A stretch of 64,000 nucleotides of DNA, taken from NCBI GenBank assembly GCA_035968315.1, contig JAVYIN010000003.1, forward strand, positions 186,001 through 250,000. The letters run 5' to 3'. Of this stretch, positions 45,068-62,490 are shown piece after piece (positions within the stretch are counted from its first letter, which is position 1; every line of letters starts with the position of its first letter). The notes below the pieces were generated by a model. It did no database searches. It had not been told where the DNA came from and was given only the letters and a program-made list of their open reading frames with translations. The stretch comes from Nitrospira sp. Its GTDB lineage: Bacteria > Nitrospirota > Nitrospiria > Nitrospirales > Nitrospiraceae. Position numbers and translations under genes: made by a program.

Positions 45068-45117
45068 GTTTTCCCTCATCTCATAATCCATGGGTTATCC
45101 GTAATACCGCTGGACGA

Positions 45118-46194: not shown

Positions 46195-47505
46195 TTACGA
46201 AATCTTCGGAGGCTCTTTCCCCTCATACACCTGCGAGAGGTAATCCACGATCTTCTTAAGCGCTCCGGCACTGAGCTTCTGCCCGAACACCTTAGGCATT
46301 GTGTTATCCGGGAACGGCTTCACGACATAGGCACTCGGATTGACGATCGACTCCATAATATAGTCCGGAGTCGTCTTCGCGGTCCCTTTGTAATCCTTGT
46401 CCTTGATGCGAGTCGGTGCGTTGGTCCCTTCGACAAGCTTCGGGCCAATTGTTCCGTTCGCACCAGGAATACCAGGAATCGTATGGCACGATACGCACTG
46501 GGCCTTGGCAAAAATTTGATCCACAGGCTCAGTACCATCAGCCATCAACGCGCTCGGAGGGCCAGCCTTTTCTTCGCTCTTCTTAGGCCGATCCGCTTCA
46601 GGGATAAACTTTTCGTATGACTTCACGATTTCATCGAATGACGGAGCGTCACGTCCTTCGCGAAGATAGAGCCAGGTATCAACCGCTGCCAATTCATCCA
46701 AGCTAAGTGAAATCGGCGGCTTGTGGATTGACGGCATTGGGCTTTCCTTGTCGTTCGTACCCTTCACACCGTATCCAGCCACCACGTAGCAATTCGGACA
46801 CGCATGGGACTCTGCGATGTATTCCTGTCCATTTTCAGCCGTCCCTGATCCAGGGAAGGCTTCCTTCTGAGCATATTCACGCTTCTCGGGATGCCCCTTT
46901 GAATACTTCGGATCTTCCAGACGTTCTTTACCGGCGCGTTCAGGCAACCCCTGCAAGTTCGGCGCACGCTCTCCGAGCATGCCTGCATGGAACGCATGAC
47001 ACAATGGGCACTGACCTTTTCCGATTGCGCCCTGCTCCTTGTTCTTCCCCACGCCGCCGAAAATAATCTTTTCACCCTCGTCAGCCAATTGCTGAGGAGT
47101 CATACCGCTGTACTCGAGCTTCTCAACCTTCGGAGGAAATCCGCCTTCAACCTGCGGCAACCAATTTCCATAACCGGAAAGAAAGGCCGCCACGAAGAAC
47201 ATCAACCCACCAATCTTCAAAAGCGCCCCAAGATTGGTGAAGTAGATCGCCAGCATGAAGGTTGTCGCCGTCACCATGACAAGAGACACCGGCAAGAGAC
47301 GATTCTCGCCGTAGAAATTCTCTTTGTAGTTCGCGATCGCCATGAACAACATCAGCGTTGCGAGCATGCCGATAAACGTCTTGAACGTGGCCCGCTTCTT
47401 GGCAGCAGGATCGCTGATAGAAACCTGAAAGTACACTAAAAGGCCAGCCAGCAGTGCGAGCGCTGGCCACCCCATATCAAGTGCCTGTTTAATCAAATCG
47501 CCCAC
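46195..47505 (-). CDS. Membrane-anchored cytochrome c with a degenerate third heme site
   Basis: 436 residues. Four membrane helices in the first 130 residues (WPALALLAGLLVYFQVS, FIGMLATLMLFMAIANY, LVMVTATTFMLAIYFTN, IGGLMFFVAAFLSGYGNW). The soluble part has CXXCH at GQCPLCHAFHAG and AQCVSCHTIPGIPG. Between them is SHACPNCYVVAGYG, a CXXC with Tyr in place of His, so heme attachment there is uncertain. Probably an electron donor to the bd-like oxidase; it is encoded 78 bases after it. Confidence 0.85.
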   Translation of the reverse strand: MGDLIKQALDMGWPALALLAGLLVYFQVSISDPAAKKRATFKTFIGMLATLMLFMAIANYKENFYGENRLLPVSLVMVTATTFMLAIYFTNLGALLKIGGLMFFVAAFLSGYGNWLPQVEGGFPPKVEKLEYSGMTPQQLADEGEKIIFGGVGKNKEQGAIGKGQCPLCHAFHAGMLGERAPNLQGLPERAGKERLEDPKYSKGHPEKREYAQKEAFPGSGTAENGQEYIAESHACPNCYVVAGYGVKGTNDKESPMPSIHKPPISLSLDELAAVDTWLYLREGRDAPSFDEIVKSYEKFIPEADRPKKSEEKAGPPSALMADGTEPVDQIFAKAQCVSCHTIPGIPGANGTIGPKLVEGTNAPTRIKDKDYKGTAKTTPDYIMESIVNPSAYVVKPFPDNTMPKVFGQKLSAGALKKIVDYLSQVYEGKEPPKIS

Positions 47506-47583: not shown

Positions 47584-49497
47584 TTAGTGGCTACCTGCCG
47601 GCTGCGGCGCACTACCGGGAACCGCTGCCTTTGCTTCGACCGGTGCCTTCTTAGCGGCCAAGCTGCCAAGCCAGAACACAAAGAGAATGCTAATCCAGAA
47701 GAACAACACGTTGAACGAAATCATGTTCGCGGCAAATCCGACCGTATGGGTATAGGCCCAGGGTGAATTGTCGCGCATAATTTCATTCACGTGCCAGAAG
47801 AGTCTGACCGATGAGCGGATGTAGCCCATCAAGCCCATCATCCAGGTAAAGGCGGTCGCCAGCATGATCAGAGCATATTGCGAACGGGCAGAAATCTTGC
47901 CCCACTCAATCGCCCCTGTCTGCTTGGCCCCCTTCATCATGACGCTATTGAGCGCGAACATGAAGAAGAGACATGAGAGCGTCGTCGCCACCTGCGGGAC
48001 AGACAAACCTACGCGAACGTTCGCCGGAATGTAATACCCGTAGATAGCGAGACCGACAATATTGATGTAGGCAAAGAAGAAGAAACATCCCATGAAGATG
48101 TTTCCGAATTTCGCCCAAGACACAGTTGAAACCTTATTACCCCGCATGTACCACACGAAACTCAACACCGTGGTGGTAATAATGACGTTGATGCCGCCGT
48201 TCTTGGCCGACATAACTCCATAGTTACCCAACACCGGGTGCTGCTGTCCACCCATGGCCTTCAACTCCGCAGGAGTCATAACCATGGTGTGCGGCGTGAT
48301 AAATACGAGATATCCGCAAGCGAGAATAAAGACCAGATACTTGATGTAGCGCTGATATTTTTCCGCGCCACGCATCCGGCCCATGGCCTGCCAGAGGTAG
48401 TAGTTCGTGCTCAAAAACAGAATCCCGATCATGGTTGCCTGAATGATAAAGAGCCAGGCAAGCAATCCACCCATGAGCGTAATACCCATCTGCTGCCGAT
48501 AGGCATACACTTCGCGCATGAGCCAGTAGCCAGCGAATGGCAACGGGATCAAGAACGCGACACCGAGCGCCATCGCGATATAGCCCATCCAGTCGTAATG
48601 GGCGCGGTCTTCGTCGGTCTTCGACGCAAGGAACTTGTATGCCGCATAGGCCGCGACGACACCGCCACCGAACGCCATATTTCCGAGAATGCGGTGGAGA
48701 TTGAGCGGATTCCACAATGCGGTGTGCAGCACGTGCCAGATATTCCCCAGATACCGTCCCTGCTCGTCAACACCGGCCGGCGACATCATGAAACCGATCC
48801 ACGAATTCGCCAAGAACATGAGCAAGGTGCCGATGATGTTCAGAATGACCGACATGCTCAAGTGGATCCACTTGAGGAACCCTTCCTTCATCTTGTCCCA
48901 GCCATAATAATAGATGTAGAGGGTCCCGCTCTCAGCCACGAACATCAATGCATAGATGTGCATAACCGGACGGAAGATGCTGGACAGATACCCGAAGAAG
49001 GCAGGATAGAGAGTCAAGAACGTAAAGATAAGAATACCGCCGAGCACAGCGGTCAGCGAGTAGGCCGTCAGACTGATCTTAATAAAGTCGTAGGCGAGCT
49101 GATCGTACCGCTTCGCAAGAGCCTTATCCTTCGTCACCACCCCCATAAATTCGACGACCATACAGAAGATCGGCACGGCCAGCACGAAGCTGCCGTAATA
49201 GAGGTGCTGCTGATTCGCAAACCACAGCAGGACGCGGCTCTCAAAGTTATACCGCGGATAATCCTTCGGGCCATCCGTCGTCACCGGAGCAGGGGCGCCA
49301 ACAACGATACCCTCCGTCTTGTAATAGACGTCACGCCCCTTCTCAACCTTCGCCTCTTCCTTCTTCCCCTCTTCCGCAAACGCCACCCCACCGGAAGTCA
49401 GTGAGGGCAACGATACGGCGATCGGAAGCAGGAGGAGGCCGACCATCGCGCCCAGCGCCATGATCGACATCATCTTCTTACGGGTTAAAAAACCCAT
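47584..49497 (-). CDS. Cytochrome bd-superfamily oxidase-like subunit, no quinol loop (copy 1)
   Basis: 637 residues from the ATG at 49497, with AAGGAGG eight bases upstream. After a signal/anchor helix and the leader FAEEGKKEEAKVEKG there are about 14 membrane helices. CydA-like landmarks: NQQHLYYGSFVLAVPIF (His of the first heme site), MFVAESGTLYIYYYGWDKM (equivalent to the CydA Glu-99 helix), FLANSWIGFMMSPAG. Other conserved His: WHVLH, NPLNLHRI, ITPHTMVM. The GRQPW quinol-binding motif of CydA is not found. In Nitrospira such proteins are the proposed terminal oxidase, probably fed by cytochrome c. Confidence 0.85.
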   Translation of the reverse strand: MGFLTRKKMMSIMALGAMVGLLLLPIAVSLPSLTSGGVAFAEEGKKEEAKVEKGRDVYYKTEGIVVGAPAPVTTDGPKDYPRYNFESRVLLWFANQQHLYYGSFVLAVPIFCMVVEFMGVVTKDKALAKRYDQLAYDFIKISLTAYSLTAVLGGILIFTFLTLYPAFFGYLSSIFRPVMHIYALMFVAESGTLYIYYYGWDKMKEGFLKWIHLSMSVILNIIGTLLMFLANSWIGFMMSPAGVDEQGRYLGNIWHVLHTALWNPLNLHRILGNMAFGGGVVAAYAAYKFLASKTDEDRAHYDWMGYIAMALGVAFLIPLPFAGYWLMREVYAYRQQMGITLMGGLLAWLFIIQATMIGILFLSTNYYLWQAMGRMRGAEKYQRYIKYLVFILACGYLVFITPHTMVMTPAELKAMGGQQHPVLGNYGVMSAKNGGINVIITTTVLSFVWYMRGNKVSTVSWAKFGNIFMGCFFFFAYINIVGLAIYGYYIPANVRVGLSVPQVATTLSCLFFMFALNSVMMKGAKQTGAIEWGKISARSQYALIMLATAFTWMMGLMGYIRSSVRLFWHVNEIMRDNSPWAYTHTVGFAANMISFNVLFFWISILFVFWLGSLAAKKAPVEAKAAVPGSAPQPAGSH

Positions 49498-49563
49498 GGC
49501 AAACCTCCTTGATGCACTCCAAAATATGATGAACCAATCTTCAAACAACCCTGCCAGGCCAGA

Positions 49564-49686
49564 CTACTTCCTGAACATGTACCAGAAATCCAACCCCTGC
49601 GCGTCCATCAGGAAATGGTCAACCGCCAAAAAGTACGCCACACAAATCGCCACTGAAACTATCGCGTAGAAAATTGTCTGCCCCAT
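49564..49686 (-). CDS. 40-residue single-helix membrane protein
   Basis: Starts MGQTIFYAIVSVAICVAYFL, preceded by TTTGAGGGAGGCAGCGAG, a strong ribosome site. One membrane helix and a short polar end finishing WYMFRK. It lies 66 bases upstream of the bd-like oxidase gene on the same strand. The size and position resemble small helper subunits of bd oxidases (CydX/CydS), but there is no sequence similarity that I can claim. Confidence 0.7.
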   Translation of the reverse strand: MGQTIFYAIVSVAICVAYFLAVDHFLMDAQGLDFWYMFRK

Positions 49687-49745: not shown

Positions 49746-49868
49746 TTAGCAAGGGCACTGAATGCCGGCGAACCAATAAAAGAACCACATGCCCACGGCG
49801 CACGTGATGTAGAAAATCATCTTCCCGACCTTAACCATCAAATCGCTGTCAGCTGGTGCTGTCGCCAT
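49746..49868 (-). CDS. 40-residue single-helix membrane protein
   Basis: Starts MATAPADSDLMVKVGKMIFY, preceded by TTTTAGGGAGGGGGAATACG, a strong ribosome site. One membrane helix (MIFYITCAVGMWFFYWFAG) ends in IQCPC with two terminal-region cysteines. It is the first gene of the minus-strand oxidase operon. Function unknown; a small structural subunit of the oxidase or a partner of a c cytochrome is possible. Confidence 0.7.
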   Translation of the reverse strand: MATAPADSDLMVKVGKMIFYITCAVGMWFFYWFAGIQCPC

Positions 49869-49986: not shown

Positions 49987-50091
49987 ATGACCAAAAACTC
50001 AAAATTGTTCGACATTATAGTTTTGGCTGGAATGGTTGTCAACATCATTTTGGCCGTGTTTCTGATTCTCTACTACTTTGACTTTCTGTAA
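49987..50091 (+). CDS. 34-residue membrane peptide, divergent from the oxidase operon
   Basis: ATG at 49987 behind AAAGGGA. It starts MTKNSKLFDIIVLAGMVVNI and continues as a single hydrophobic helix ending YYFDFL. A consensus promoter lies 40-70 bases upstream. The last 47 bases overlap, on the opposite strand, the end of the FGE-fold gene at 50045. Too short for normal gene callers; similar in size to CydS-type small oxidase subunits. Confidence 0.55.
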   Translation: MTKNSKLFDIIVLAGMVVNIILAVFLILYYFDFL

Positions 50092-50995
50092 TTTTCTCCA
50101 GGCCAGATGCCCCTGAACCATCCCCCCTGTCAGCGGATTTAGCGCATCGAAACCCGATCGTTTCATCGCGAAAATCAGGCACCATTTTACTGCGGCTGGT
50201 GATTCTGACATCGGCCCCGGCTGTGGTATAGCCCCCGCCACGGAGCACTCGATAGACGCCATGCTCCGGGCTGGGGGGATTCCGGTCTGGCGACTCCTTG
50301 AAATAGTTCTCTGCGTACCAATCCTCGACCCACTCCATGACGTTCCCGGCTCCATCCGCCACTCCGAACGGACTCACATCGGACTGAAAGGCCCCCACCG
50401 ATGCCGCAACCTCATAGCCGTCATTGACACGTGCCCAATTCGCCCCGTTGGGCCGATCGGCATTGCCCCACGGCCACAGACGCCCATCGACACCGCGCAT
50501 GGCTTTTTCCCATTCCGCCTCGGTCGGCAACCGCTTCCCTTTCCACTGACAATAGGCCTGCGCATCGTCCCAGGATACATAGACCGCCGGCTGATTCGGC
50601 CCGCGCATTTTGCCCACATTCTTCGCGTATCGCGCCGGAGGACCCGCCTTGCGATGGCCCGTTGCAGCCGCAAATTGTCCGTAGTGATAGTTCGTCACTT
50701 CATACCGGTCGATCTGAAACGGATCGAGGAGAATTTCTCTGGCCGGCTGCTCATCAAATCCTCCCACATTGGTCCCACGCACGAACGGGCCACCAGGAAT
50801 GAGCACCATCTCGTCCTTGAGCGGCTCCTCAGCGGCCTCTCCTGGGCCTTCGCCCGTCTTCACCGGCTCCAGCAGCTCTTCAGGCGAGTCCTCCAATGGG
50901 GTACTGGTCGTCCCTCGCAGGATCGCAATAATGGGCATGGAGGCAAACAGCAGCACGGTAATTCCAAAGACAACCTTGAATCGAGTCTCCAGCAT
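50045..50995 (-). CDS. Membrane-anchored FGE/SUMF1-fold protein (copy 2)
   Basis: 316 residues from the ATG at 50995. N-terminal membrane helix (VFGITVLLFASMPIIAIL), a linker rich in Glu/Pro, then the formylglycine-generating-enzyme fold: MVLIPGGPFVRGTN, YEVTNYHYGQF, PAVYVSWDDAQAYCQWKGKRLPTEAEWEKAMRG, GNVMEWVEDWY and GFRCAKSAD. The pair of active-site cysteines of true FGE is absent. There is no sulfatase nearby. Probably a ligand-binding or structural domain in the periplasm. Confidence 0.85.
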   Translation of the reverse strand: MLETRFKVVFGITVLLFASMPIIAILRGTTSTPLEDSPEELLEPVKTGEGPGEAAEEPLKDEMVLIPGGPFVRGTNVGGFDEQPAREILLDPFQIDRYEVTNYHYGQFAAATGHRKAGPPARYAKNVGKMRGPNQPAVYVSWDDAQAYCQWKGKRLPTEAEWEKAMRGVDGRLWPWGNADRPNGANWARVNDGYEVAASVGAFQSDVSPFGVADGAGNVMEWVEDWYAENYFKESPDRNPPSPEHGVYRVLRGGGYTTAGADVRITSRSKMVPDFRDETIGFRCAKSADRGDGSGASGLEKITESQSSRESETRPK

Positions 50996-51000
50996 GGCGG

Positions 51001-51918
51001 TTACTGCCCGGCCGCTTCCACTCCGGAGTCCAGATCGCTCGCGCACCGGATTCCGATCGTGATGTCATTCCGCCAATACTTGGCGGCAAACCGCTTGGAC
51101 AGCCTTGCGTTCTGCTCCGTTTCTCTCCAGGAGCCGCCACGCACCACCTTAAGCTGGCTATCGTCGATGACTTTCGGGTCTCGATACACCCCTTTTTTAT
51201 AGAAATGTTCGTCGTAGGAATCGGCGACCCACTCCGCGACGTTTCCGGTCATGTCATGCAACCCGTAGGGACTGCGGCCCGCCTCGAAGGAGCCGGGAGG
51301 CGCAAGATACTTATAGCCATCCTCAGGCCCATCCACATTGGCAACATTGTTCAAGAACTTGTCGCCCCAGGGATACTTTCGTTTCCCCTCGCCGCGCCCG
51401 GCCTTTTCCCACTCGGCCTCGGTCGGCAACCGTTTCCCGGCCCACTTGCAATAGGCCGCGGCATCTTCCCACGAGACGCTCATGGCCGCCAGCTCCGGCT
51501 TGAGCACCTTGGACTGATCGTCTTCAAATACTTCGATGCGCGGCTCGGGCCGCTTCGTCATTTTGGCAAAACGCAAATATTCGTCCTGCCGCACTTCATT
51601 GCGGTCGATATAGTAGCCTTTCAAAAACACCTGATGCTCGGGAGCCTCGTCCGGATCGCCGTCATTGCTCCCCATCGTAAAGGGGCCGGCAGGAATCTGC
51701 ACCATCTCCCGGCCTTCATCCCCGACTCTGGTTTTGTACATGGAGTAATCCTGCGCCACCGTCTTGGCCGCGGCCGGACGAGCCTCCGTCTGGATGCTCA
51801 TGACCAATTTCCGCATCTGCTTGTCCTTGTACGACTCGTAGACCAGCCCGGCGATCAGGAGAATAAACGACCCGAATACAAAGACGATTGACCCGATCAG
51901 CACACCCCTGTTTTCCAT
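51001..51918 (-). CDS. Membrane-anchored FGE/SUMF1-fold protein (copy 1)
   Basis: 305 residues. N-terminal membrane helix (IVFVFGSFILLIAGLVYES). FGE-fold: MVQIPAGPFTMGSNDGDPDE, NEVRQDEYLRF, MSVSWEDAAAYCKWAGKRLPTEAEWEKAGRG, GNVAEWVADSY and VVRGGSWRETEQNARLSKRF ... IGIRCAS. As in the next gene (gap of five bases), the catalytic Cys pair of FGE is missing. The two are tandem paralogues at the 3' end of the second oxidase-like operon. Confidence 0.85.
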   Translation of the reverse strand: MENRGVLIGSIVFVFGSFILLIAGLVYESYKDKQMRKLVMSIQTEARPAAAKTVAQDYSMYKTRVGDEGREMVQIPAGPFTMGSNDGDPDEAPEHQVFLKGYYIDRNEVRQDEYLRFAKMTKRPEPRIEVFEDDQSKVLKPELAAMSVSWEDAAAYCKWAGKRLPTEAEWEKAGRGEGKRKYPWGDKFLNNVANVDGPEDGYKYLAPPGSFEAGRSPYGLHDMTGNVAEWVADSYDEHFYKKGVYRDPKVIDDSQLKVVRGGSWRETEQNARLSKRFAAKYWRNDITIGIRCASDLDSGVEAAGQ

Positions 51919-51954
51919 ATGTCTCCGAGCGCCTCAAAAATTCGACGATGACCC

Positions 51955-52356
51955 TTATTGGCGAGCGTCCTGAGCCGCACCGTCAACCGACGCACCCGCC
52001 GCCTCGGCCTTGCGGGCCGCACGCATATCCAACAGCATCGACACCTGAACCCCGAGAAATCCACCCATTGCGGCCCCGGCACCGGCCCCATATGAGATCC
52101 GCTCCGGTCCAGCCAACACCCAGGCCAGCAGACCGCCGAAGACAGTCCCCACCAAAATGCTGATCAAAAACCGGCGCCCTCCAAGAAAGCCGACGACGCC
52201 CCCCATCACCAACCCGATCCCGATCGCCGGCAGCATGAATTCACTGCCCATGATGAGGCCGATGAGCGTTCCCACCGTCCCCATCACAAGGATGCCCAAC
52301 ACGATATCCACGATTTTTTGCGTGGGAATCCCCTGCGCTGCGCCAGCCTCAGTCAT
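51955..52356 (-). CDS. Small glycine-rich membrane protein
   Basis: 133 residues, with about four glycine-rich membrane helices (IVLGILVMGTVGTLIGLIMG, PAIGIGLVMGGVVGFLGGRR, SILVGTVFGGLLAWVLAG, AGAGAAMGGFLGVQVSML). No family recognised. The glycine zipper pattern suggests helix packing or oligomer formation. It lies between DUF3047 and the FGE-fold genes in the same operon. Confidence 0.7.
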   Translation of the reverse strand: MTEAGAAQGIPTQKIVDIVLGILVMGTVGTLIGLIMGSEFMLPAIGIGLVMGGVVGFLGGRRFLISILVGTVFGGLLAWVLAGPERISYGAGAGAAMGGFLGVQVSMLLDMRAARKAEAAGASVDGAAQDARQ

Positions 52357-52377
52357 ACCACTCCCGAATGCCTTCCT

Positions 52378-53046
52378 TTACTTGGCAGGGCTCGCGACCA
52401 GCGAACCAAAGTCGATCTCGACACCCGGCGCCGCGATAATCGAAATACCCCAGGCTTTGGGCGCGGGCTCATGCTGATGGATGCGCTTGAAATCTTCGTA
52501 GACATTCACCCGCTCCTCAAACCACTGGCCGACGTCCTTCGTGCCGCTTTGCACCACGATCTCGGCCCCGCTGAACATCCCGCCCTCCGTCAAGGTGCCG
52601 TCGGGCTTCGTCCCGCTCCAGACATACTTGGTAAAGACCGGTATGAACATGAGGTCCGTATCCAATGACGCATAAATGGCCGCGATCTGATCGGTGCCGG
52701 CCGGCGCCTTCTGCAACCGCCACCGCCAGGTTAAGACCGGATAGGCCTTGGGGTCCCAATCGATTTTCTTCTTCTTGATCCGCTGCCCGGCATCCTTCGC
52801 CGAAAGAAAATTGACGCCGTTCTCCGTATGCACCTTGTAGGCTTCCCGCCCTTTGGAGTGGCTGCGCTGATTCTCGTGGTCCCAGGCGGAAGGAAATCCA
52901 TCGGCCTCTTTCCCCTGAAAATCCTCCAGCACCAACACCTGGCCTTCGGCTGAAGCCCGCTCGCTCATCAGCATGCCCGCACACAACACCGCACCGAATA
53001 CGGCCACCGCACTCCACACCGCTCTGCGCTTCATATCCTTCATCAC
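52378..53046 (-). CDS. DUF3047 family secreted protein
   Basis: 222 residues with a signal peptide (AVWSAVAVFGAVLCAGMLMSERASA). The mature part matches DUF3047: LEDFQGKEADGFPSAWDHENQ, YPVLTWRWRLQKAPAGTDQIA, DVGQWFEERVNVYEDFKRIHQ and GISIIAAPGVEIDFGSL. The family function is unknown; a periplasmic beta-sandwich binding protein is likely. Encoded 12 bases after the second bd-like oxidase gene. Confidence 0.8.
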   Translation of the reverse strand: MMKDMKRRAVWSAVAVFGAVLCAGMLMSERASAEGQVLVLEDFQGKEADGFPSAWDHENQRSHSKGREAYKVHTENGVNFLSAKDAGQRIKKKKIDWDPKAYPVLTWRWRLQKAPAGTDQIAAIYASLDTDLMFIPVFTKYVWSGTKPDGTLTEGGMFSGAEIVVQSGTKDVGQWFEERVNVYEDFKRIHQHEPAPKAWGISIIAAPGVEIDFGSLVASPAK

Positions 53047-53058
53047 CTTTCTTCCCGT

Positions 53059-54930
53059 TTAGGCTTCCTGCGACGACGACGGCGCCAAGGCCGGAGGCTT
53101 CTCCTCAAAGAACTCCTCCCCCATCACCGGCTGCTGCCCGCGCTGACACATCCAGAACAACCCCAACACCGCGCCCCAAAAGACCACCATGTTGAGCGTG
53201 ACCATTTTCGCGGCGAATTCCAGATCCGGCGTAAAGGCCCAGGGAGACACATCCGCCATCAGCTCGCTCACATGCCAGGCCAATCGTCCGGACGACCGAA
53301 TATAGCCCATCAGCCCCATCACCCAGGTGAAGGCCGCCGCCAAGCCAAAGAGCCCCACCATCCCGCGCACCGAAATCTTTCCCCATTGCACCGGGCCGTG
53401 CACAATCGAGCCTCTCAGCATGAGACGGTTGATGATGACCCCAGCCACAATCACCGTCAGCGTGGTAAAGGCTTGCGGCGAAGAGAGTCCGACGCGGATC
53501 TTCGCGGGCAGATAGAATCCATAAATCGACAGCCAGATCACATTCACCATGCCCACCGCATACAACGTCCCGATCAGCGCATTGCCGGTCTTGACCCACG
53601 ACACCGTCATCGTGCGATTCGCCCGGCGATAGTAGAGAAAGCTGAGGGCCGTGATGAGGATCATCACGTTCACCGCGCCGTTCTTCGCCGACATGACCCC
53701 GTAGTTCCCGACCACCGGATGCTGCGCCCCGCCCATGGCCTTCACTTCACCGGCCGACATCATCACCGTGTGCGGCGTCAGCCAGATAAACAGCGCCAGC
53801 GTCAGAACCCCGAGCAGGAACTGGTAGTACGGCTGATAGCGCTCCCCGCCCTTGATCCGCGCCATGCTTTGCCAAATGTAATAGTTGATCCCCAGCAGCA
53901 GCGCCCCGATCAACAACGCCTGCACGACAAACAGCCAGGTCAACAGCCCGCCCATCATCGTCACGCCCATGCTCTGGCTGAAGGCATACACCGAACGCAT
54001 CAACCAATAGCCGGCGATCGGCATCGGCAGCAGCGCGCAGACCGTGACAAACAGGAAAATATAGCCGACCCAATCGAAATAGGCCCGCTCCTCGCTGGTC
54101 TTGCTGGTGAAAAACCGGTAACAGGCGTAGGCCAGCACCACCGCGCCGCCGGACATAATGTCCGCGAGAAACCGGTGGACGTTGAGCGGATTCCAGAGAG
54201 ACGAATGGAGCAAATGCCACACGTTCCCCAGAAACCGGCCCTGCGCATCCACACCGGCCGGAGCCATCATAAACGCCGACCAGGCATTCGCCAGCAGCAG
54301 CAAGGCCGTGCCGAAAATATTCGTCAGGACGCCGATGGCGGCATGGATCCACTTCAATCCGCGTTCAGCCATCCGATTCCAGCTGTAGTAATAGAGAATC
54401 AGCAGCAGCGACTCCCCGACAAACACGATGGCGTAGACCGGCATGAAGGACTTGAAGGTTCCGCCCATGTACTTCATGAACGACGGATAGAAGTAGATGA
54501 ACATGGACAGCATGAGGCTCCCGACCACCGCCGTCACCGAGAGGGCCAGCAACGCGACCTTCGCCAAGTCTCTGGCCAGGCCGTCGTAGCGCAGCGACAA
54601 CGCCGGTTTTTTCGTGATGAGCCCGACAAATTCCAGCAAGGCGCAAAACAGCGGCAGCGCGAGGACGAATCCGCCGAAGTAGGTATGCTGCTGCGTCACG
54701 AACCAGACCAGCAACCGGCTGTCGAATGACCCGATCCGTGAATAGACGGTCTCATGAGGACCCGGAGCCGGCGGACCCTGCGGCGTCCCCGGCGTCTTAA
54801 AATACAAATCCGTCGTCTCCTCGGCGAAGGAGAGGCCCTGCGTCCCCCACCCCATTCCCACGAGACTGACCAAGAGCAGCAGCCCTGCCCAGAACGCCAC
54901 TGAAAGAGAGCCGAATCGTGTCATACGCAT
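53059..54930 (-). CDS. Cytochrome bd-superfamily oxidase-like subunit, no quinol loop (copy 2)
   Basis: 623 residues from the ATG at 54930 (MRMTRFGSLSVAFWAGLLLL). Same architecture as the protein at 47584-49497: signal/anchor, then about 14 helices. Matching landmarks are TQQHTYFGGFVLALPLF, IVFVGESLLLILYYYSWNRM, LLANAWSAFMMAPAGVD, WHLLHSSLWNPLNVHRF, TPHTVMM, GAQHPVVGNYGVMSAKNG and RLAWHVSEL. No GRQPW quinol motif. A distinct paralogue in a different operon without any c cytochrome, so its electron donor is unclear. Four bases separate its ATG from the preceding stop. Confidence 0.85.
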   Translation of the reverse strand: MRMTRFGSLSVAFWAGLLLLVSLVGMGWGTQGLSFAEETTDLYFKTPGTPQGPPAPGPHETVYSRIGSFDSRLLVWFVTQQHTYFGGFVLALPLFCALLEFVGLITKKPALSLRYDGLARDLAKVALLALSVTAVVGSLMLSMFIYFYPSFMKYMGGTFKSFMPVYAIVFVGESLLLILYYYSWNRMAERGLKWIHAAIGVLTNIFGTALLLLANAWSAFMMAPAGVDAQGRFLGNVWHLLHSSLWNPLNVHRFLADIMSGGAVVLAYACYRFFTSKTSEERAYFDWVGYIFLFVTVCALLPMPIAGYWLMRSVYAFSQSMGVTMMGGLLTWLFVVQALLIGALLLGINYYIWQSMARIKGGERYQPYYQFLLGVLTLALFIWLTPHTVMMSAGEVKAMGGAQHPVVGNYGVMSAKNGAVNVMILITALSFLYYRRANRTMTVSWVKTGNALIGTLYAVGMVNVIWLSIYGFYLPAKIRVGLSSPQAFTTLTVIVAGVIINRLMLRGSIVHGPVQWGKISVRGMVGLFGLAAAFTWVMGLMGYIRSSGRLAWHVSELMADVSPWAFTPDLEFAAKMVTLNMVVFWGAVLGLFWMCQRGQQPVMGEEFFEEKPPALAPSSSQEA

Positions 54931-54934
54931 GTCA

Positions 54935-55990
54935 TTACGCCTTTGAACCGGGAACCGCGGAGACCGCAGCCGTGCCCCCGATCGTCTTCCCGAGAATCCC
55001 CATGACAAACGGACAACGCAGCAACGCCGACGAGAGCCCTTGCCCTTGCGCCTCTTCCACATGCCGCCGATATCCGAGATAGTAACAATACAACGCCATC
55101 ATGGCCGCCACGCCTCCGCCGCTCGCCACCGCATAGGGCGGAGACAAGCCCGGCTGCCTCAGCACAAAAATCACAAATCCCGCCGCCACCAAATAGTAGG
55201 TTGACGCAAAGGCCAGCCCCGGCCACCACCAATATTTCAACAGCTCACCGGGAGCCGTCTGCCTGAGCCCTTGCATCCACGGCGCCGCCGGCCGGAGCCC
55301 GCCGAAATAGGCACAGAGGGCGACCGTGCCACCCAGCACCGTGACCGCCGCCAACTGAATCAGCGCGGCGATCTGATGATCCGCTGAAACACTCCCCAGT
55401 GCGGCGCCCAGTGCGCCAAGCACCAGGCCGGCCACGACCCAAGAGCTCAGTGGTGCCGGCTGCGCGCTCACCATGGCACGAAGCTCCGTGCCATCCGGGA
55501 AGGTCGGAAACGGCCGCCCCAACACCGCCATCTTTCGCACATGCCCGATTTCAAACGCGTCCCGCGCCACCGCCGTGCAGGAAATGATAATCGCCATCAT
55601 GGCCGGGCCATCCGGATGTTTCAGATAGTCGTATCCCACCAGCCAGAGCAGCGCCAGCACCAGCAACGATAGCTGCACTCCGTAGACAAAGCCAATCCAG
55701 CCGGCCAGCCAGCCAAGCCTGCGAAGGCCATCGGCAGGAACGATCTCCCGCCAGGCAACCGCACGCCCGACGCGATAGGCCAGCAACGCCGTCACGACCG
55801 CCACCAGCCCGCTGACCGCTAACAGCACCACCGGTTCCGTCAACGGCAGCAGATGCTTCGCCAGCCGGTACACCCCAAACGCCACGAGGCCGGGAACGAA
55901 CATCACAATCCGCTTGGTTTTTCGGACCGACTCTTCCGTCACCGCCAGCGTCAAACTGGGCAACACCCGCAATGCCATCCGATGCAGCAT
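54935..55990 (-). CDS. Polytopic membrane protein of unknown function, oxidase partner candidate
   Basis: 351 residues with about nine hydrophobic helices (VMFVPGLVAFGVYRLAKHLL, VVLLAVSGLVAVVTALLAYR, LGWLAGWIGFVYGVQLSLLVL, WWWPGLAFASTYYLVAAGFVI). No family recognised. Its stop is four bases before the start of the second bd-like subunit, so translation is probably coupled. It could be the second structural subunit, in the place CydB takes in classical bd oxidases, but no CydB motif is visible. Confidence 0.7.
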   Translation of the reverse strand: MLHRMALRVLPSLTLAVTEESVRKTKRIVMFVPGLVAFGVYRLAKHLLPLTEPVVLLAVSGLVAVVTALLAYRVGRAVAWREIVPADGLRRLGWLAGWIGFVYGVQLSLLVLALLWLVGYDYLKHPDGPAMMAIIISCTAVARDAFEIGHVRKMAVLGRPFPTFPDGTELRAMVSAQPAPLSSWVVAGLVLGALGAALGSVSADHQIAALIQLAAVTVLGGTVALCAYFGGLRPAAPWMQGLRQTAPGELLKYWWWPGLAFASTYYLVAAGFVIFVLRQPGLSPPYAVASGGGVAAMMALYCYYLGYRRHVEEAQGQGLSSALLRCPFVMGILGKTIGGTAAVSAVPGSKA

Positions 55991-56007
55991 AATTGACTCG
56001 TTAGACG

Positions 56008-56065
56008 TAAGACGTGAAACGCGAAACGACAGGCTCTAATTTCGTTTTACTTTTCACGTTTCTCC
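56008..56065. repeat. Degenerate GTGAAACG repeat, copy D, both orientations
   Basis: GACGTGAAACGCGAAACG and, about 25 bases later, TTCGTTTTACTTTTCACG and CACGTTTC form an imperfect inverted repeat in the gap between the PCP_red gene and the polytopic gene. Related to the copies near 2857, 6556 and 18869. Confidence 0.5.
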
Positions 56066-56067
56066 CA

Positions 56068-56562
56068 TCACGCCTTCTGCGCCGCCATCCCGAAATACTT
56101 CGCCTTGATCTCTTCCATCAACGCAACCGTGATTCGCGTCTGTCCGCGGTCTGCCGCCGTGCGTTCCAATTCCACACGGGCCATGGCACGCACCGGGGCC
56201 GGCACCTTATCCAATCGCCGTTCCGCTTCAGGGTCCCACACAATCCGCTCGCCGGTGCGCGGCCGCAGCAATGTCTCGTAAGCCACGACGCGCTCACCCC
56301 TGATCCGCACATCCTGCTCGACTTCTTCGCGTACGAGCGGGGCCAGATACGGCGGCATCCGCTCCAGCCGGTGCAAGGCCTCGTCCGTCCAGGTCAACCG
56401 ATCGATCAGCCCGCTCAGCTGCCCGGCCGGCACATCCACGCCGACTTTCAGGCCGCACCCGCGGCACTCCGAGCGCACAAACCATTGCGGCACCCCGTCC
56501 TCACCGGTTCGTTCCTCAACACCCTCCGTGTGCATCCAGCGCCCACAGCCGCAGGTCAACAT
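56068..56562 (-). CDS. PCP_red-domain protein with zinc-ribbon start
   Basis: 164 residues. The start (LTCGCGRWMHTEG ... RSECRGCGLKV) carries two Cys pairs, a probable zinc or iron-sulfur site. Two tandem ~45-residue repeats follow: WTDEALHRLERMPPYLAPLVR and WDPEAERRLDKVPAPVRAMAR, both resembling the PCP_red domain at the end of the light-independent protochlorophyllide reductase B subunit. No photosynthesis genes are nearby, so it must have another role, possibly in cofactor assembly. It starts three bases after DUF420 ends. Confidence 0.8.
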   Translation of the reverse strand: MLTCGCGRWMHTEGVEERTGEDGVPQWFVRSECRGCGLKVGVDVPAGQLSGLIDRLTWTDEALHRLERMPPYLAPLVREEVEQDVRIRGERVVAYETLLRPRTGERIVWDPEAERRLDKVPAPVRAMARVELERTAADRGQTRITVALMEEIKAKYFGMAAQKA

Positions 56563-56565
56563 CGC

Positions 56566-57279
56566 TTAGCCAATCTTGCCGGGATAAAAAATATAGAGCA
56601 TCGCGTAGGTGGTGGTCCCGGTAATGAACAGCACACAATAGATGATCATCGTAAACAGGCCGAGCGCCCGGTGCCGCCGCGCGCCGTTCGGCCAGATCCG
56701 CTGAATCGTCATCTCAATGGAAAAGACAAACGCCACGAGGGCGAGGAGGCCAAGATAGACCTCCATTTTCCTCAGTGAGAATCCCGCCGTCGCCACTCGA
56801 GAGAGGAACAGCAGCACGACTACAGCCGTCACGGCCCCGAAAATGAGGCCCACCTTCCGCCATGACGTCAGCAGGAGCGACTCCTTGAGCGTGCGCACCC
56901 CATCCAATACCTGTTGGGACCGAAAGCCCAGCACGATCATGTAGACCGCCATGACCAAGCCGATGATCACCAGAATGATGTGGAGCGTCAGGACGGGAAT
57001 AAACACATAATCGTAGAGCGCCTGCGAGCCGCCGAACCCTTCCTTCCCCTCAAAGGCCAGAACCCCAAGCTGCCGGAAGAGATAATAGGCGACGAAGAAA
57101 CTGAGCATCGCGATCATGCCACCGAGCATCAGCCAATGATGCGCATGCGCCCGATTCCGTTTGGCCTGAATCCAGCCGATCACGAAAAGCGCGGTGAAGA
57201 ACGTCGCCATCAACTGGCTGACGTCAGCGCCGACCGTGGCGTGTGTGCCAAAGAAGCCCGGATCGCGTAACCAGTCCAT
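56566..57279 (-). CDS. DUF420 family membrane protein (CtaM/YozB-like)
   Basis: 237 residues with six to seven membrane helices. The DUF420 signature is visible: FFTALFVIGWIQAKRNRAHAHHWLM, LYDYVFIPVLTLHIILVIIGL and RRHRALGLFTMIIYCVLFITGTTTY, including several His residues in membrane positions. The family includes CtaM, which helps assemble heme-copper oxidases. Its presence in this operon suggests a helper or subunit role for the bd-like oxidase. Confidence 0.8.
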   Translation of the reverse strand: MDWLRDPGFFGTHATVGADVSQLMATFFTALFVIGWIQAKRNRAHAHHWLMLGGMIAMLSFFVAYYLFRQLGVLAFEGKEGFGGSQALYDYVFIPVLTLHIILVIIGLVMAVYMIVLGFRSQQVLDGVRTLKESLLLTSWRKVGLIFGAVTAVVVLLFLSRVATAGFSLRKMEVYLGLLALVAFVFSIEMTIQRIWPNGARRHRALGLFTMIIYCVLFITGTTTYAMLYIFYPGKIG

Positions 57280-57294
57280 GAATCCTGCGCCCCT

Positions 57295-58275
57295 TTATCC
57301 CTTGATGCCCTGCACGACCGCCGTCCGCTCCAGCTCCGTGACCGAGGCAAACCCGGCCGCCGTCATCCACTGGATCGCTTCGCCGGTCTTGTAGCACCCG
57401 CCCTGTTGCGTGTTGACCAAAATATGGACCGCGAAGGCCGTGGTCCAGGCCGGACCGGTCCCCGCGTCATCGAGAAAACGATCCTTAATCACCAACCGCC
57501 CCCCCGGCGCGAGATGCGTGAACACTTTTTTGACCAGCGCCGCATTCGTCTCAAAATCTTGATAGTGCAGAATGTCGGACATGAGGGCGACATCGTAGGG
57601 GCCGCCCAGGGCATCCTGGTTGAAATTCCCCGGATGCAGCGCGATCCGCGATTCCAGCCCCGCCTCTTTCACCGTGCGCTCGGTCAGCCGCAACGTCGCA
57701 GGCAAATCGAACACCGTTGCCGTCAATTCCGGGTACACCCGGCAAAAGGCAATCGAGTTGGTCCCGGCCCCGCCCCCCAAGTCCAGCAGACGCACCGGCC
57801 CAGAGAGCTGCAGGCGCTTCGCCAAATCAGGGCCGCTCTGCTGGCCGATTCGATGCAAGACGGCCAGCACATTGCCGCCAAGTTCCGGATCGGTTTCAAA
57901 GACATGGCGATCGACGGCTCGCTGGCCGGTTTTGATCGTCTGCTCCAGCTTGCCCCAATTCTCCCATTCGGCATCGTGCAGCAACAGCAGATGCCCGATA
58001 TATTGAGGAGATTGCCGCACCAAATGAGTCTCGGCAGCCGACGCATTCCCGTAGGTTTCGCCGTCTTTGTTCAAGAGACGCATCGCCACCAAGGCATTGA
58101 GCAATAGCGCCAGCGTCCGTTCGTGCGCGCCAATCCTGGCCGCAATTTCAGCGGCCGTTTTCCGCTTGCCATCCAACGCGGAAAAGACGTCCAGACGGAC
58201 GGCCGTCAGCAGGATTTTGGTTTCCCAGTAATAGCCGAGCTGAAAGATTTCCGCGAGTGAGAGTTCCCGTGACAC
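57295..58275 (-). CDS. SAM-dependent O-methyltransferase, family 2
   Basis: 326 residues from a GTG at 58275 behind AAGGGGA. N-terminal winged-helix dimerisation domain (KILLTAVRLDVFSALDGKRKTAAEIAARIGAHERTLALLL in outline) and a C-terminal methyltransferase fold with the SAM loop LLDLGGGAGTNSIAF and ALMSDILHYQDFE. Resembles acetylserotonin/hydroxyneurosporene O-methyltransferases; substrate unknown. First gene of the ten-gene operon down to 50045. Confidence 0.85.
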   Translation of the reverse strand: MSRELSLAEIFQLGYYWETKILLTAVRLDVFSALDGKRKTAAEIAARIGAHERTLALLLNALVAMRLLNKDGETYGNASAAETHLVRQSPQYIGHLLLLHDAEWENWGKLEQTIKTGQRAVDRHVFETDPELGGNVLAVLHRIGQQSGPDLAKRLQLSGPVRLLDLGGGAGTNSIAFCRVYPELTATVFDLPATLRLTERTVKEAGLESRIALHPGNFNQDALGGPYDVALMSDILHYQDFETNAALVKKVFTHLAPGGRLVIKDRFLDDAGTGPAWTTAFAVHILVNTQQGGCYKTGEAIQWMTAAGFASVTELERTAVVQGIKG

Positions 58276-58444: not shown

Positions 58445-59242
58445 TTACTTGATCTCGGCCTTGAGGTTCGCGGTGCCGCCATCGGCCACTTCCACCTCAA
58501 ACTCGACCTTCTTGCCCTTCGCGGCAAAGGGGTGCCAGGCCACCACTTTGTGCTTGCCGGCCGGGACATCCTTGAGCTCGAACGAACCGTCTTCCTTCAC
58601 AACGGCATAGTGCTTGTTCGAAACCGGGAGGAAGAAGGACTGCATGAACTCATGCTGGTCGCACTGCAACCGATAGTAGCCTTCCTTTTCGGCGCCGCCG
58701 CGGAACGTCACCGGCTTCTCGAGCTTGTCACCCTTCTTGGCGAGACCGATGTTGAAACCGGTCGCCGAGGTGGAGCCCTTCACGGTGAAGCTGTGCGGGT
58801 TGTGGAGCACGCCTTCCTTGGACTTGGGATCGTCAGGATCCGCATCGTGGTTCTCGGCGCGGAAGTTCTTGTTGTTGACCACGATGCCCGTGAACGGGAG
58901 GAATTCGCAGAATTCCGCGACCACATCCGTGCCGGCATAGGCATCCATGAACGCCTTGTCTTCGATATCGACCACGGCCACAACCGCACCCTTCAGACCA
59001 CCATCCTTGCCCACTTCGATGGTCTTGAGGAAACGCTTATCGCCATCCATCAAGCTCTTGTTCGGGTTCTTCGGGCAGAACTTGGGATTCGGGAACTTGG
59101 CGAAGGAGAATTCCTTCTGCTCAGCTTTCCCGGCATAGGTCACTTTCCCGGCAATGGTTCCGCCGGCATTCGCAGCCAACGGCGCTGCAATCAACGCCAC
59201 TGCGGCCGCACCAAACACAACTGATAACGCACCCTTCTTCAT
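58445..59242 (-). CDS. Secreted cupredoxin-like protein with regulatory-type beta domain
   Basis: 265 residues with a signal peptide (VVFGAAAVALIAAPLAANA). The mature part starts with a carboxypeptidase-regulatory-like strand set (GTIAGKVTYAGKAEQ). A blue-copper-type ligand set is visible: His in HNPHSFTVKG and Cys-His-Met in LQCDQHEFM (C-x2-H-x2-M, the amicyanin spacing). It ends with a second regulatory-like domain (GSFELKDVPAGKHKVVAWHP). Probably a periplasmic electron carrier or copper protein. A consensus promoter and terminator make it a single-gene unit. Confidence 0.75.
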   Translation of the reverse strand: MKKGALSVVFGAAAVALIAAPLAANAGGTIAGKVTYAGKAEQKEFSFAKFPNPKFCPKNPNKSLMDGDKRFLKTIEVGKDGGLKGAVVAVVDIEDKAFMDAYAGTDVVAEFCEFLPFTGIVVNNKNFRAENHDADPDDPKSKEGVLHNPHSFTVKGSTSATGFNIGLAKKGDKLEKPVTFRGGAEKEGYYRLQCDQHEFMQSFFLPVSNKHYAVVKEDGSFELKDVPAGKHKVVAWHPFAAKGKKVEFEVEVADGGTANLKAEIK

Positions 59243-60846: not shown

Positions 60847-61491
60847 TTACCCTTGCACTCTGGGCCCGGCGGGGCTCGCTCGTTTTTTATATCCGGGCGG
60901 TTCGTCGAAATAATAATCCGGCTGCGGCGAGAGGCGAATCCGTTCGTACGCGATCGACCAATCCCGGTCGCGGCTCACCAGCTTCAACACGATCCCCGCT
61001 TCCACATCGACCCATTCGAAAAACCGTTCAACCCGGCCATGGCGATCCGTCTGCACCTCGAACAATTGCGCCGCGCGGCCGACCGCCGTGGCCTCTCCGA
61101 CCAACACCCGTTCCTTCTCGCCCGGCAAGGCCGGACGAACCGGCAGCACATCATCCACATCCACCGGCGTGACCAGCAACTCCTTCCGCTGCGCAAGCAG
61201 ATACCAGGTTTCGGCCTTGTCCAAGCGAACGATCTCGATCGCGGCATACCCATAGTCGGTCTTGAGGGCATACTTATACTCCAGACGGATCCGGTCCTCC
61301 TTCGCAAAGACTTGCGCCTGATGCCGACGGCCGTTCACCTGCTTGATGAGCGTCCCGGAAAATTCAACGGCCGGTGCCGCCGCCTCACCGCCCCACGCCT
61401 GGCCGAGTACGCTGCCTGACAGGAACGCCAGCCCGAGACACAGTAATCGGACTGGCGCCCTCATGCGAACGGTGGCGGGGAAGGGCCTCAA
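60847..61491 (-). CDS. Secreted hypothetical protein, DUF4412/LolA-like fold
   Basis: 214 residues with a signal peptide (LLCLGLAFLSGSVLGQAWG). The mature sequence alternates strands: VEFSGTLIKQVNGRRHQAQVF, IEIVRLDKAETWYLLAQRKEL, and a late FFEWVDVEAGIVLKLVSRDRDW, resembling the half-barrel of outer-membrane lipoprotein carriers or DUF4412. Function unknown. The ATG overlaps the stop of the copper-site protein upstream by four bases. Confidence 0.65.
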   Translation of the reverse strand: MRPFPATVRMRAPVRLLCLGLAFLSGSVLGQAWGGEAAAPAVEFSGTLIKQVNGRRHQAQVFAKEDRIRLEYKYALKTDYGYAAIEIVRLDKAETWYLLAQRKELLVTPVDVDDVLPVRPALPGEKERVLVGEATAVGRAAQLFEVQTDRHGRVERFFEWVDVEAGIVLKLVSRDRDWSIAYERIRLSPQPDYYFDEPPGYKKRASPAGPRVQG

Positions 61492-62444
61492 TGCTGACGT
61501 TCCACAAACGGCTGGATGTCGATCGAATAACCGAGGGATTCCGGACCGAAGCGGGGATTATCCATCACCTTGTAGGCGGAACGATTCCCTTTGGGCGCCT
61601 GCAGCGAGAACTGCTCCTGCACCTTGCCATCGGCGTGGATCGTCACGGTTTTCGTCAACCCCGGCCCGGTCTGTGGATGCCAGACCACCATCTGATAGGT
61701 CCCCGGCGGAATGCGATCGATGGTGAAGGCCCCATTCTCATCGGTCAGCGCATAATAGGGATTGTTCACCGCCATCGCCCAACTCTCCATATAGGCGTGA
61801 AATCCGCACTGCATATAAAAGGTCCGCCGCCCTTTGTTCAGGTACACCGGCCCAATCAGCGAGGCCCCCGGCGCATGATTGTGCATTGCATGAATATCAC
61901 CCCGGTGGTGCTGGTGATTCATGACCAGCGGGGTGTTGAAGAGCGTCCGCGCCCCGGATTCCAGCGACGTCTCATACCCCTGAATATCGTGCATCACGGG
62001 ATCCATGTTGATCACTTCCACCGCATGCCCATTCCGCACGATCGTCATAAAGGGCAGAAACAAACAGTCGCGCGCCTCGATCAGGGGCACGGAAATTTCA
62101 AACGGCTTGCCCGACTCCACCCCCTCCAGGAGCACGATCGCATCCTTCAACCCCGCATTCGGCCCGACCACAAAATCTCGGAGCAGCCGCCAGCCACGGC
62201 CATTCGAGATGCGTCCGCAATAGGCCGGATCGGGAAAGGTAATCAGGTTGAAGCCCTTGGGCTCGGGAATCGGACCATCCAGCCGCACGACACCTTCGAT
62301 GGATCCGCCATGCGGCACGTCCACCACTTCATATGCCGCCGCCGGCAACACACCAACCGCCAGAACCAGCAGCCAGAGGGCCGCTATCGCCGCCTTGCTT
62401 GCCCGCTGCCAAACCGCCTTGCCATTCACCGCGTCGTCCTCCAT
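61488..62444 (-). CDS. Secreted cupredoxin-like protein, paralogue
   Basis: 318 residues from the ATG at 62444 (a GTG at 62462 is possible). Signal segment IAALWLLVLAVGVLPAAAYE. Ligand-like residues: His in PVMHDIQGYE and MQCGFHAYM (C-x2-H-x2-M, amicyanin-like). A regulatory-type beta domain follows (GAFTIDRIPPGTYQMVVWHP), closely matching the end of the protein at 58445-59242. A His-rich segment, NHQHHRGDIHAMHNHAPG, may bind additional metal. Downstream of a terminator that follows the multicopper-oxidase-like gene. Confidence 0.75.
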   Translation of the reverse strand: MEDDAVNGKAVWQRASKAAIAALWLLVLAVGVLPAAAYEVVDVPHGGSIEGVVRLDGPIPEPKGFNLITFPDPAYCGRISNGRGWRLLRDFVVGPNAGLKDAIVLLEGVESGKPFEISVPLIEARDCLFLPFMTIVRNGHAVEVINMDPVMHDIQGYETSLESGARTLFNTPLVMNHQHHRGDIHAMHNHAPGASLIGPVYLNKGRRTFYMQCGFHAYMESWAMAVNNPYYALTDENGAFTIDRIPPGTYQMVVWHPQTGPGLTKTVTIHADGKVQEQFSLQAPKGNRSAYKVMDNPRFGPESLGYSIDIQPFVERQH

Positions 62445-62490
62445 CCGGATGTGAATTTGCACCGCGTCCGCATCGTATCAAAAGGCCGCC

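Follow-up and report, generated by a model that had tools for sequence, protein, structure and literature searches.

Described bd-like systems and the bd2 locus

It is still an open question how Nitrospira passes electrons from nitrite to O2 and drives them uphill to quinone, and the bd-like proteins of these bacteria have been called enigmatic in the literature. Here, we examine a gene for such a protein, bd2, and the operon around it in a 64,000-nt stretch of a Nitrospira sp. genome (contig JAVYIN010000003.1 of assembly GCA_035968315.1), which we refer to as the window (positions 1 to 64,000). The closest described system appears in PMC6606698, where the bd-like protein bd-like_3 is grouped with two cytochromes c and alt_NxrC_2, a diheme membrane protein of ~67 kDa with a signal peptide and a C-terminal transmembrane (TM) segment. 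PMC6606698 also mentions bd-like_4, a duplicate bd-like gene of unknown role that all Nitrospira genomes carry within a few genes of the first. A bd-like protein cluster with an alternative NxrC has also been reported in strictly anaerobic anammox bacteria (PMC6606698, PMC3578206, PMC8026999) and in Nitrospina (PMC3578206, PMC8026999); its presence in strict anaerobes counts against O2 reduction as the general function of the cluster. A complex-III-like role in reverse electron transport has been proposed for the bd-like protein of the cluster (PMC3578206). Some Nitrospira bd-like proteins have been treated as oxidases (PMC12342949, PMC10839748). One variant keeps all the haem and copper ligands of haem-copper oxidases (HCO), and in another, one His is replaced by Gln and one His by Phe (PMC8026999).

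The window holds the same arrangement as that given for bd-like_3, bd-like_4, and alt_NxrC_2 in PMC6606698. The CydA-like protein bd1 (47584 to 49503, minus strand; PF01654, 1.7e-20) is followed on the same strand by a diheme membrane cytochrome c (46195 to 47505; two CxxCH motifs, PF00034), a monoheme membrane cytochrome c (45118 to 46155; one CxxCH motif, PF13442), and an alternative NxrC-like protein (43289 to 45091), thus reproducing the published alternative-NxrC/bd-like cluster. The NxrC-like protein has a mass of 68.0 kDa, an EB_dh domain, two cytochrome c domains, two CxxCH motifs, and a C-terminal hydrophobic segment. The second bd-like gene, bd2 (53059 to 54930, minus strand), encodes a CydA-like paralogue of bd1 with a match to the N-terminal part of Cyt_bd_oxida_I (PF01654, 1.1e-17). 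Judged by protein features rather than locus tags, bd1 is probably the published bd-like_3 and bd2 is probably bd-like_4.

The passages of PMC6606698 consulted do not describe the seven-gene module that contains bd2, its insertion point, its absence outside three families, the micro-proteins of the locus, or the residue changes reported below. In literature on Nitrospira combined with DUF420 or other module gene names, we found no account of the module or of the neighbourhood of bd-like_4. An earlier sequence-only reading of the window had put the operon forward as a candidate for an undescribed system; this stands for the gene neighbourhood, for which we found no description, but not for the duplicate itself, already noted as bd-like_4 in PMC6606698. 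The module is real, strongly conserved, and poorly described, and we judge it to be a variation on a known complex rather than a new oxidase.

The seven-gene module and its distribution

Nine genes are tightly packed on the minus strand between 58275 and 50045. Read in that direction, they encode a methyltransferase, a DUF420 protein, a PCP_red protein, an eight-helix protein, bd2, a DUF3047 protein, a glycine-zipper protein, and two proteins with the fold of formylglycine-generating enzyme (FGE), FGE1 and FGE2, with intergenic gaps of 15, 3, 77, 4, 12, 21, 36, and 5 bases. The sequence-only reading had counted ten genes here; its coordinates, strand, and gap range of 3 to 77 bases were otherwise accurate. 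Pfam searches recovered the domains that it had named (DUF420, PCP_red, bd-like, DUF3047, and two FGE-sulfatase) as well as Methyltransf_2, alongside a polytopic protein without a match and a small glycine-rich membrane protein. A motif scan of the nine translations found no CxxCH motif, in agreement with its statement that the operon carries no cytochrome c, and a Pfam search found no CydB-type domain among them. The limits that it gave for the operon are compatible with a terminator-like hairpin at 58408-58381, ahead of the methyltransferase gene, and a sigma-70-like promoter at 50014 to 50042 (minus strand), 3' of FGE2, which has the perfect form TTGACA-17-TATAAT (12/12 consensus bases) and faces an operon comprising two micro-proteins (sm1 and sm2) and bd1. 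Orthologue comparison indicates that bd2 likely starts at 54930 and that FGE2 most likely starts at the ATG at 50995.

We compared the locus across class Nitrospiria, using the labels f1 to f4 for families within Nitrospirales, with the module in f1 to f3, and labels up to f13 for the other families of the class. Outside Nitrospirales, the locus order is cupredoxin-like protein, FGE1, a 34-aa open reading frame (ORF) on the opposite strand, FGE2, micro-ORFs, bd1, diheme cytochrome c, monoheme cytochrome c, and alternative NxrC, although not every family has all of these pieces. The cupredoxin-like gene and FGE1 adjoin each other, 121 to 284 bases apart, in three module-free loci (L184 and L185 of f6, L190 of f5). 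In f1 to f3, exactly seven genes lie between them, from the methyltransferase through the glycine-zipper protein, and the left border of this insertion in the window is the gene for an exported cupredoxin-like protein (58445 to 59242, minus strand), whose motif C-x2-H-x2-M we read from the sequence. Because these border genes are neighbours in module-free families, the operon consists of a seven-gene module plus two genes of an older bd1 locus. Gene order assigns both FGE1 and FGE2 to this ancestral locus; in f4 and in other orders, too, FGE2 lies upstream of bd1. The sequence-only reading had treated the operon as one unit; the operon is indeed conserved, but it joins two evolutionary units. 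The simplest reading is that the module was gained in Nitrospirales, the alternative being loss in all other families.

When we checked co-occurrence, as the sequence-only reading had suggested, the gene set proved to be conserved together: the order from the cupredoxin-like gene through bd2 and bd1 to the cytochromes c is constant in ~35 loci of f1 to f3, apart from pieces at contig ends. Of 396 genomes sampled from the phylum, 147 carry the eight-helix gene, the most specific marker of the module: 138 are Nitrospirales (f1 to f3), and nine, from other families of the class, have distant homologues with E values of about 1e-27 to 1e-39. In our search of the sampled genomes, the marker was found in 138 of 144 Nitrospirales and was missing from all three f4 genomes and three further Nitrospirales. 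In the loci examined, bd2 occurs only beside bd1, within the bd1 locus, in f1 to f3; the f4 to f13 genomes examined lack bd2 and carry one bd1-type orthologue. The best 80 bd2 matches among named genomes are exclusively Nitrospira-type records, including the Candidatus Nitrospira defluvii chromosome. Two f6 genomes (G180 and G300, 95 to 96% complete) have bd1 as the sole bd-like gene of any type found; bd1 therefore seems independent there of bd3 and bd4, the other bd-like genes considered below.

A strong match to NXR-beta (~140 to 180 bits) was present in most of the module-bearing genomes tested and absent from the f4 and other-order genomes tested. It was also absent from the genome to which the window belongs (rated 99.97% complete), where the gap may reflect assembly loss of multi-copy nxr. 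Because the module-bearing genomes form one clade, the NXR association, though consistent, is not independent evidence for a link to nitrite oxidation. Within the NXR-bearing families, nearly every Nitrospirales genome sampled carries the module, which their relatives lack and which sits inside an NXR-associated complex; this gives a short, testable parts list. That list includes three conserved micro-proteins, which standard annotation may overlook.

bd2 and its possible roles

The source genome (3.11 Mb) has four bd-like genes, bd1 and bd2 in the window and a bd3-bd4 pair on another contig. In our tree, bd1, bd2, and bd3 fall in one clade and bd4 stands apart. The bd2 sequences, ~50% identical to bd1, form their own clade with support 1.0 and a long stem, and the trees are compatible with a bd1-bd2 duplication either within Nitrospirales (approximately unbiased test, AU p 0.165 and 0.194) or older. 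Across the same 13 genomes, mean pairwise identity is 62% for bd2 versus 81% for bd1, indicating that bd2 evolves faster. The bd1 and bd2 identities are correlated (0.96), but we did not count this toward pairing, since vertical inheritance by itself would produce such a value.

The predicted model of bd2 has a mean predicted local distance difference test (pLDDT) score of 75, with 85 to 93 in the core. It matched solved CydA chains at VIA Z 28 to 31, compared with 22 for alternative complex III subunits, and aligned to E. coli CydA (7ose_A) over 351 residues with Z 31.0 and a root-mean-square deviation of 3.8. As modelled, bd2 has the CydA fold. Like CydA (E. coli 6rko and 7ose, Geobacillus 5doq), it has equivalents of H19, H126, and H186, which are kept in all four groups, bd1 to bd4. 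Unlike CydA, to which it is ~15% identical, it has no CydB and no Q-loop quinol residues: the Pfam match ends ahead of the Q-loop and extra helices follow, so the quinol-binding Q-loop is lacking, as likewise reported for bd-like proteins (PMC3578206). The position of E99 is Tyr and that of E445 is Leu in bd1 to bd4. Within the canonical CydAB haem-ligand set (H19, H186, E99, E107, and E445), only H19 and H186 are kept throughout bd2.

Further changes distinguish bd2 from its paralogues. E331 of bd1, which is Glu in all other groups, is Ser or Ala in 34 of 35 bd2 sequences, and N275 is Asp in all 35. The equivalent of E107, E191, is gone from three of 35 sequences, in three lineages that include the N. 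defluvii genome. At none of these three positions does bd1 vary. In the HCO-like ligand columns, which we inferred from the substitutions to Q and F given in PMC8026999, bd2 has Gln in place of His in 34/35 sequences and Gly, Ala, Ser, Glu, or Thr in place of His or Phe in 35/35. The same columns are His (10/10) and His (8/10) in bd3 and Gln and mostly Phe in bd1. Given these changes, bd2 lacks the residues by which another Nitrospira bd-like protein has been recognized as an oxidase. The NIDE0901-type bd-like oxidase, or OR-N CydAA' (PMC12342949, PMC10839748), shares with bd2 a superfamily, an N-terminal CydA core, and extra helices that replace the Q-loop. NIDE0901, with HH and HWH, is most likely the bd3 gene at 877.6-879.3 kb in N. 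defluvii, and bd2 differs from it in having QH and G/A/S/E-W-H. We had considered bd1 as the NIDE0901 terminal oxidase, but this was wrong: the N. defluvii pair at 0.87-0.88 Mb is bd4/bd3, bd1/bd2 lie at 3.26-3.27 Mb, and HH/HWH is found in bd3.

The operon is not an independent second oxidase locus. The explanation we prefer, to which we give about an even chance, is that the bd1/cytochrome c/alternative-NxrC complex of Nitrospira-type nitrite oxidizers gained bd2 as a further CydA-like, haem-bearing subunit that came with assembly genes of its own and probably does not reduce O2. Paralogy, fold, insertion point, conservation, and residue changes can be read from the sequences; we infer the pairing of bd2 with bd1, the electron path, and the roles of the other six module genes. 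In this mechanism, bd2 would pair with bd1 as a haem-bearing, non-O2-reducing partner, in an arrangement like CydA/CydB or CydAA', and would relay or buffer electrons on their way between the membrane and cytochrome c or cupredoxin. Metal or haem loading and assembly would fall to the DUF420, PCP_red, methyltransferase, DUF3047, glycine-zipper, and eight-helix proteins. The nesting of the module in the bd1 locus, its constant order, and the single bd1 without bd2 in f4 to f13 argue for such an addition, as do the CydA fold of bd2, its faster evolution and residue losses, the restriction of NXR-beta to module-bearing families, and the assembly role of DUF420 proteins. Several points weigh against it. 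In all other families bd1 occurs without bd2, so the partnership is not an obligatory one for bd1; bd2 keeps the canonical histidine haem ligands and may have some redox role of its own; the separate promoter ahead of bd1 would permit separate regulation; and, with NXR and the module confined to one clade, their association may be one historical event.

It is unlikely, in our estimation, that bd2 forms its own separate non-oxidase complex, such as a cytochrome c/quinone oxidoreductase serving reverse electron transport, and is linked to bd1 by location alone. The module has its own transcription unit between the terminator-like hairpin and the perfect promoter, it encodes an eight-helix membrane partner without a significant fold match, and the complex-III-like proposal (PMC3578206) and the occurrence of the cluster in anaerobic anammox bacteria fit such a role. 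However, bd2 is the sole evident redox subunit of the module, which has no CxxCH motif, and the module lies between bd1-locus genes and was never found away from bd1 in the loci examined. We also regard as unlikely a more specific proposal, in which bd2 would combine with the eight-helix protein and with the small membrane proteins into an undescribed electron-transfer complex of aerobic nitrite oxidizers. Its copper or modified-haem centre would be built by a dedicated CtaM-like/PCP_red/methyltransferase set, and it would carry nitrite-derived electrons to the membrane, for example in reverse electron transport.

Alternatively, the main task of the module could be copper/haem assembly and homeostasis for Nitrospira respiratory complexes generally, in which case bd2 would act not as a subunit but as a redox sensor or haem chaperone. 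DUF420 is present in nearly all Nitrospiria genomes tested, with or without bd2, and neighbours thioredoxin-like genes; relatives of the PCP_red and methyltransferase proteins act on tetrapyrroles in other organisms; and bd2 is degenerate at some catalytic positions. We nevertheless find this quite improbable, as bd2 is large, strongly conserved overall, and retains its haem ligands, and a set made only for assembly would have no need of a complete CydA-like protein. Most doubtful is a second terminal oxidase fed by periplasmic cytochrome c or cupredoxin, since against the predicted CydA fold, the retained H19, H126, and H186 equivalents, and the treatment of some Nitrospira bd-like proteins as oxidases (PMC12342949, PMC10839748) stand the altered HCO-like ligands, the loss of the E107 equivalent in three lineages including N. 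defluvii, the replacement of E331 in 34/35 sequences, the lack of an electron-entry subunit in the operon, and the published oxidase candidate in the other pair, bd3/bd4.

The sequence-only reading had called bd2 a second bd-like oxidase, a label that does not suit a bd1 paralogue inside the bd1 locus that lacks the HCO-like ligand set and has lost the E107 equivalent in 3/35 sequences. The neighbouring locus, which it had taken for the first oxidase locus, holds bd1, itself the bd-like protein of the alternative-NxrC cluster known also from strictly anaerobic anammox bacteria (PMC6606698, PMC3578206, PMC8026999). That reading had left the choice between a distinct oxidase and a non-oxidase respiratory complex with a dedicated assembly set, and of these the second is the better one.

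Other genes of the module and the bd1 locus

The first module gene (57295 to 58275, minus strand, as are all module genes) encodes a Methyltransf_2-type S-adenosylmethionine (SAM) methyltransferase (PF00891 1.6e-20, PF08100) and holds an identical position in every f1 to f3 locus that extends that far. Its closest NCBIfam relative is BchU/CrtF, at 68.8 bits, far short of the cut-off of 276; haem modification by a BchU-like methyltransferase with PCP_red thus remained a lead only. The DUF420 (CtaM family) membrane protein (56566 to 57279; PF04238 1.1e-16, 61.7 bits against a cut-off of 30.5) has six hydrophobic segments and conserved His47, His48, His100, and His203. DUF420 proteins are required in oxidase assembly, and copper movement has been proposed (PMC13344008, PMC9145763). 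Like the CtaM/DUF420 assembly factor (PMC13344008, PMC4958251), the module protein is a polytopic membrane protein with the DUF420 domain and a link to respiratory genes, but it is longer (237 aa) and tied to bd-like proteins rather than haem-copper oxidases. DUF420 was present in 28 of 29 genomes of class Nitrospiria tested, with or without bd2, and the Nitrospiria genes stand beside thioredoxin-like genes, near the alternative NxrC. The methyltransferase-DUF420 pair was seen in f7 and f10, and DUF420 adjoins thioredoxin-like and PCP_red genes in f6 and f8.

The PCP_red-domain protein (56068 to 56562; PF08369 1e-21) has a conserved CxC...CxxC pattern (C4, C6, C33, C36) and probably binds metal. 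Three loci (L184, L187, and L196) share a run of genes in which DUF420 precedes those for a NUBPL-type ATPase, PCP_red, a haem-oxygenase-like protein, and a second PCP_red; this arrangement recurs in other families and may serve metal or tetrapyrrole handling. The eight-helix membrane protein (54935 to 55990) begins with MLHR and carries an invariant RDxxEIG motif. Searches of Pfam, NCBIfam, and PDB gave no match to it, and Foldseek found nothing significant with the predicted model (pLDDT 87); as the best structural match reached only VIA Z 5.9, its fold points to no function. Distant homologues in two f7 loci (L113 and L118) stand beside genes for MlaA, MlaC, and an MMPL transporter; this lipid-transport setting differs from the surroundings in Nitrospira and does not help to assign a function to the protein. 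The last two module genes encode a DUF3047 protein (52378 to 53046; PF11249 4.3e-18), predicted to be exported or anchored by a single N-terminal hydrophobic segment, and a small glycine-rich (glycine-zipper-like) membrane protein (51955 to 52356) with three hydrophobic segments and many glycines that are invariant across 16 orthologues.

FGE1 (51001 to 51918; PF03781 5.8e-53) and FGE2 (50045 to 50995; PF03781 7.9e-57), both on the minus strand, are membrane-anchored members of the FGE-sulfatase domain family. The catalytic Cys pair of formylglycine-generating enzyme is expected between its RGGS and GFR motifs. Read directly from the two sequences, neither protein has a Cys in that stretch.

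Three single-TM micro-ORFs accompany bd1. The 34-aa ORF MTKNSKLFDIIVLAGMVVNIILAVFLILYYFDFL (49987 to 50091, plus strand) is divergent from the bd1 operon and overlaps its promoter on the opposite strand. It was found at 44 loci across the class, including other orders, with a ratio of nonsynonymous to synonymous differences (pN/pS) of 0.26 and a pS of 0.66, making it a candidate small subunit. On the minus strand, sm1 (40 aa; 49746 to 49868) has a Shine-Dalgarno sequence and the C-terminus GIQCPC and is conserved in f1 to f3 loci, and sm2 (40 aa; 49564 to 49686) has the motif MDxQGLDYFYMFR and is conserved in f1 to f4 loci; both are possible CydX- or CcoQ-like subunits. Cupredoxin-like proteins have been reported for the NXR-associated cluster (PMC3578206). 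Beyond the one at the insertion border, the window encodes a second exported cupredoxin-like protein with C-x2-H-x2-M at 61488-62462 (minus strand), and the two are possible electron carriers for the complex.

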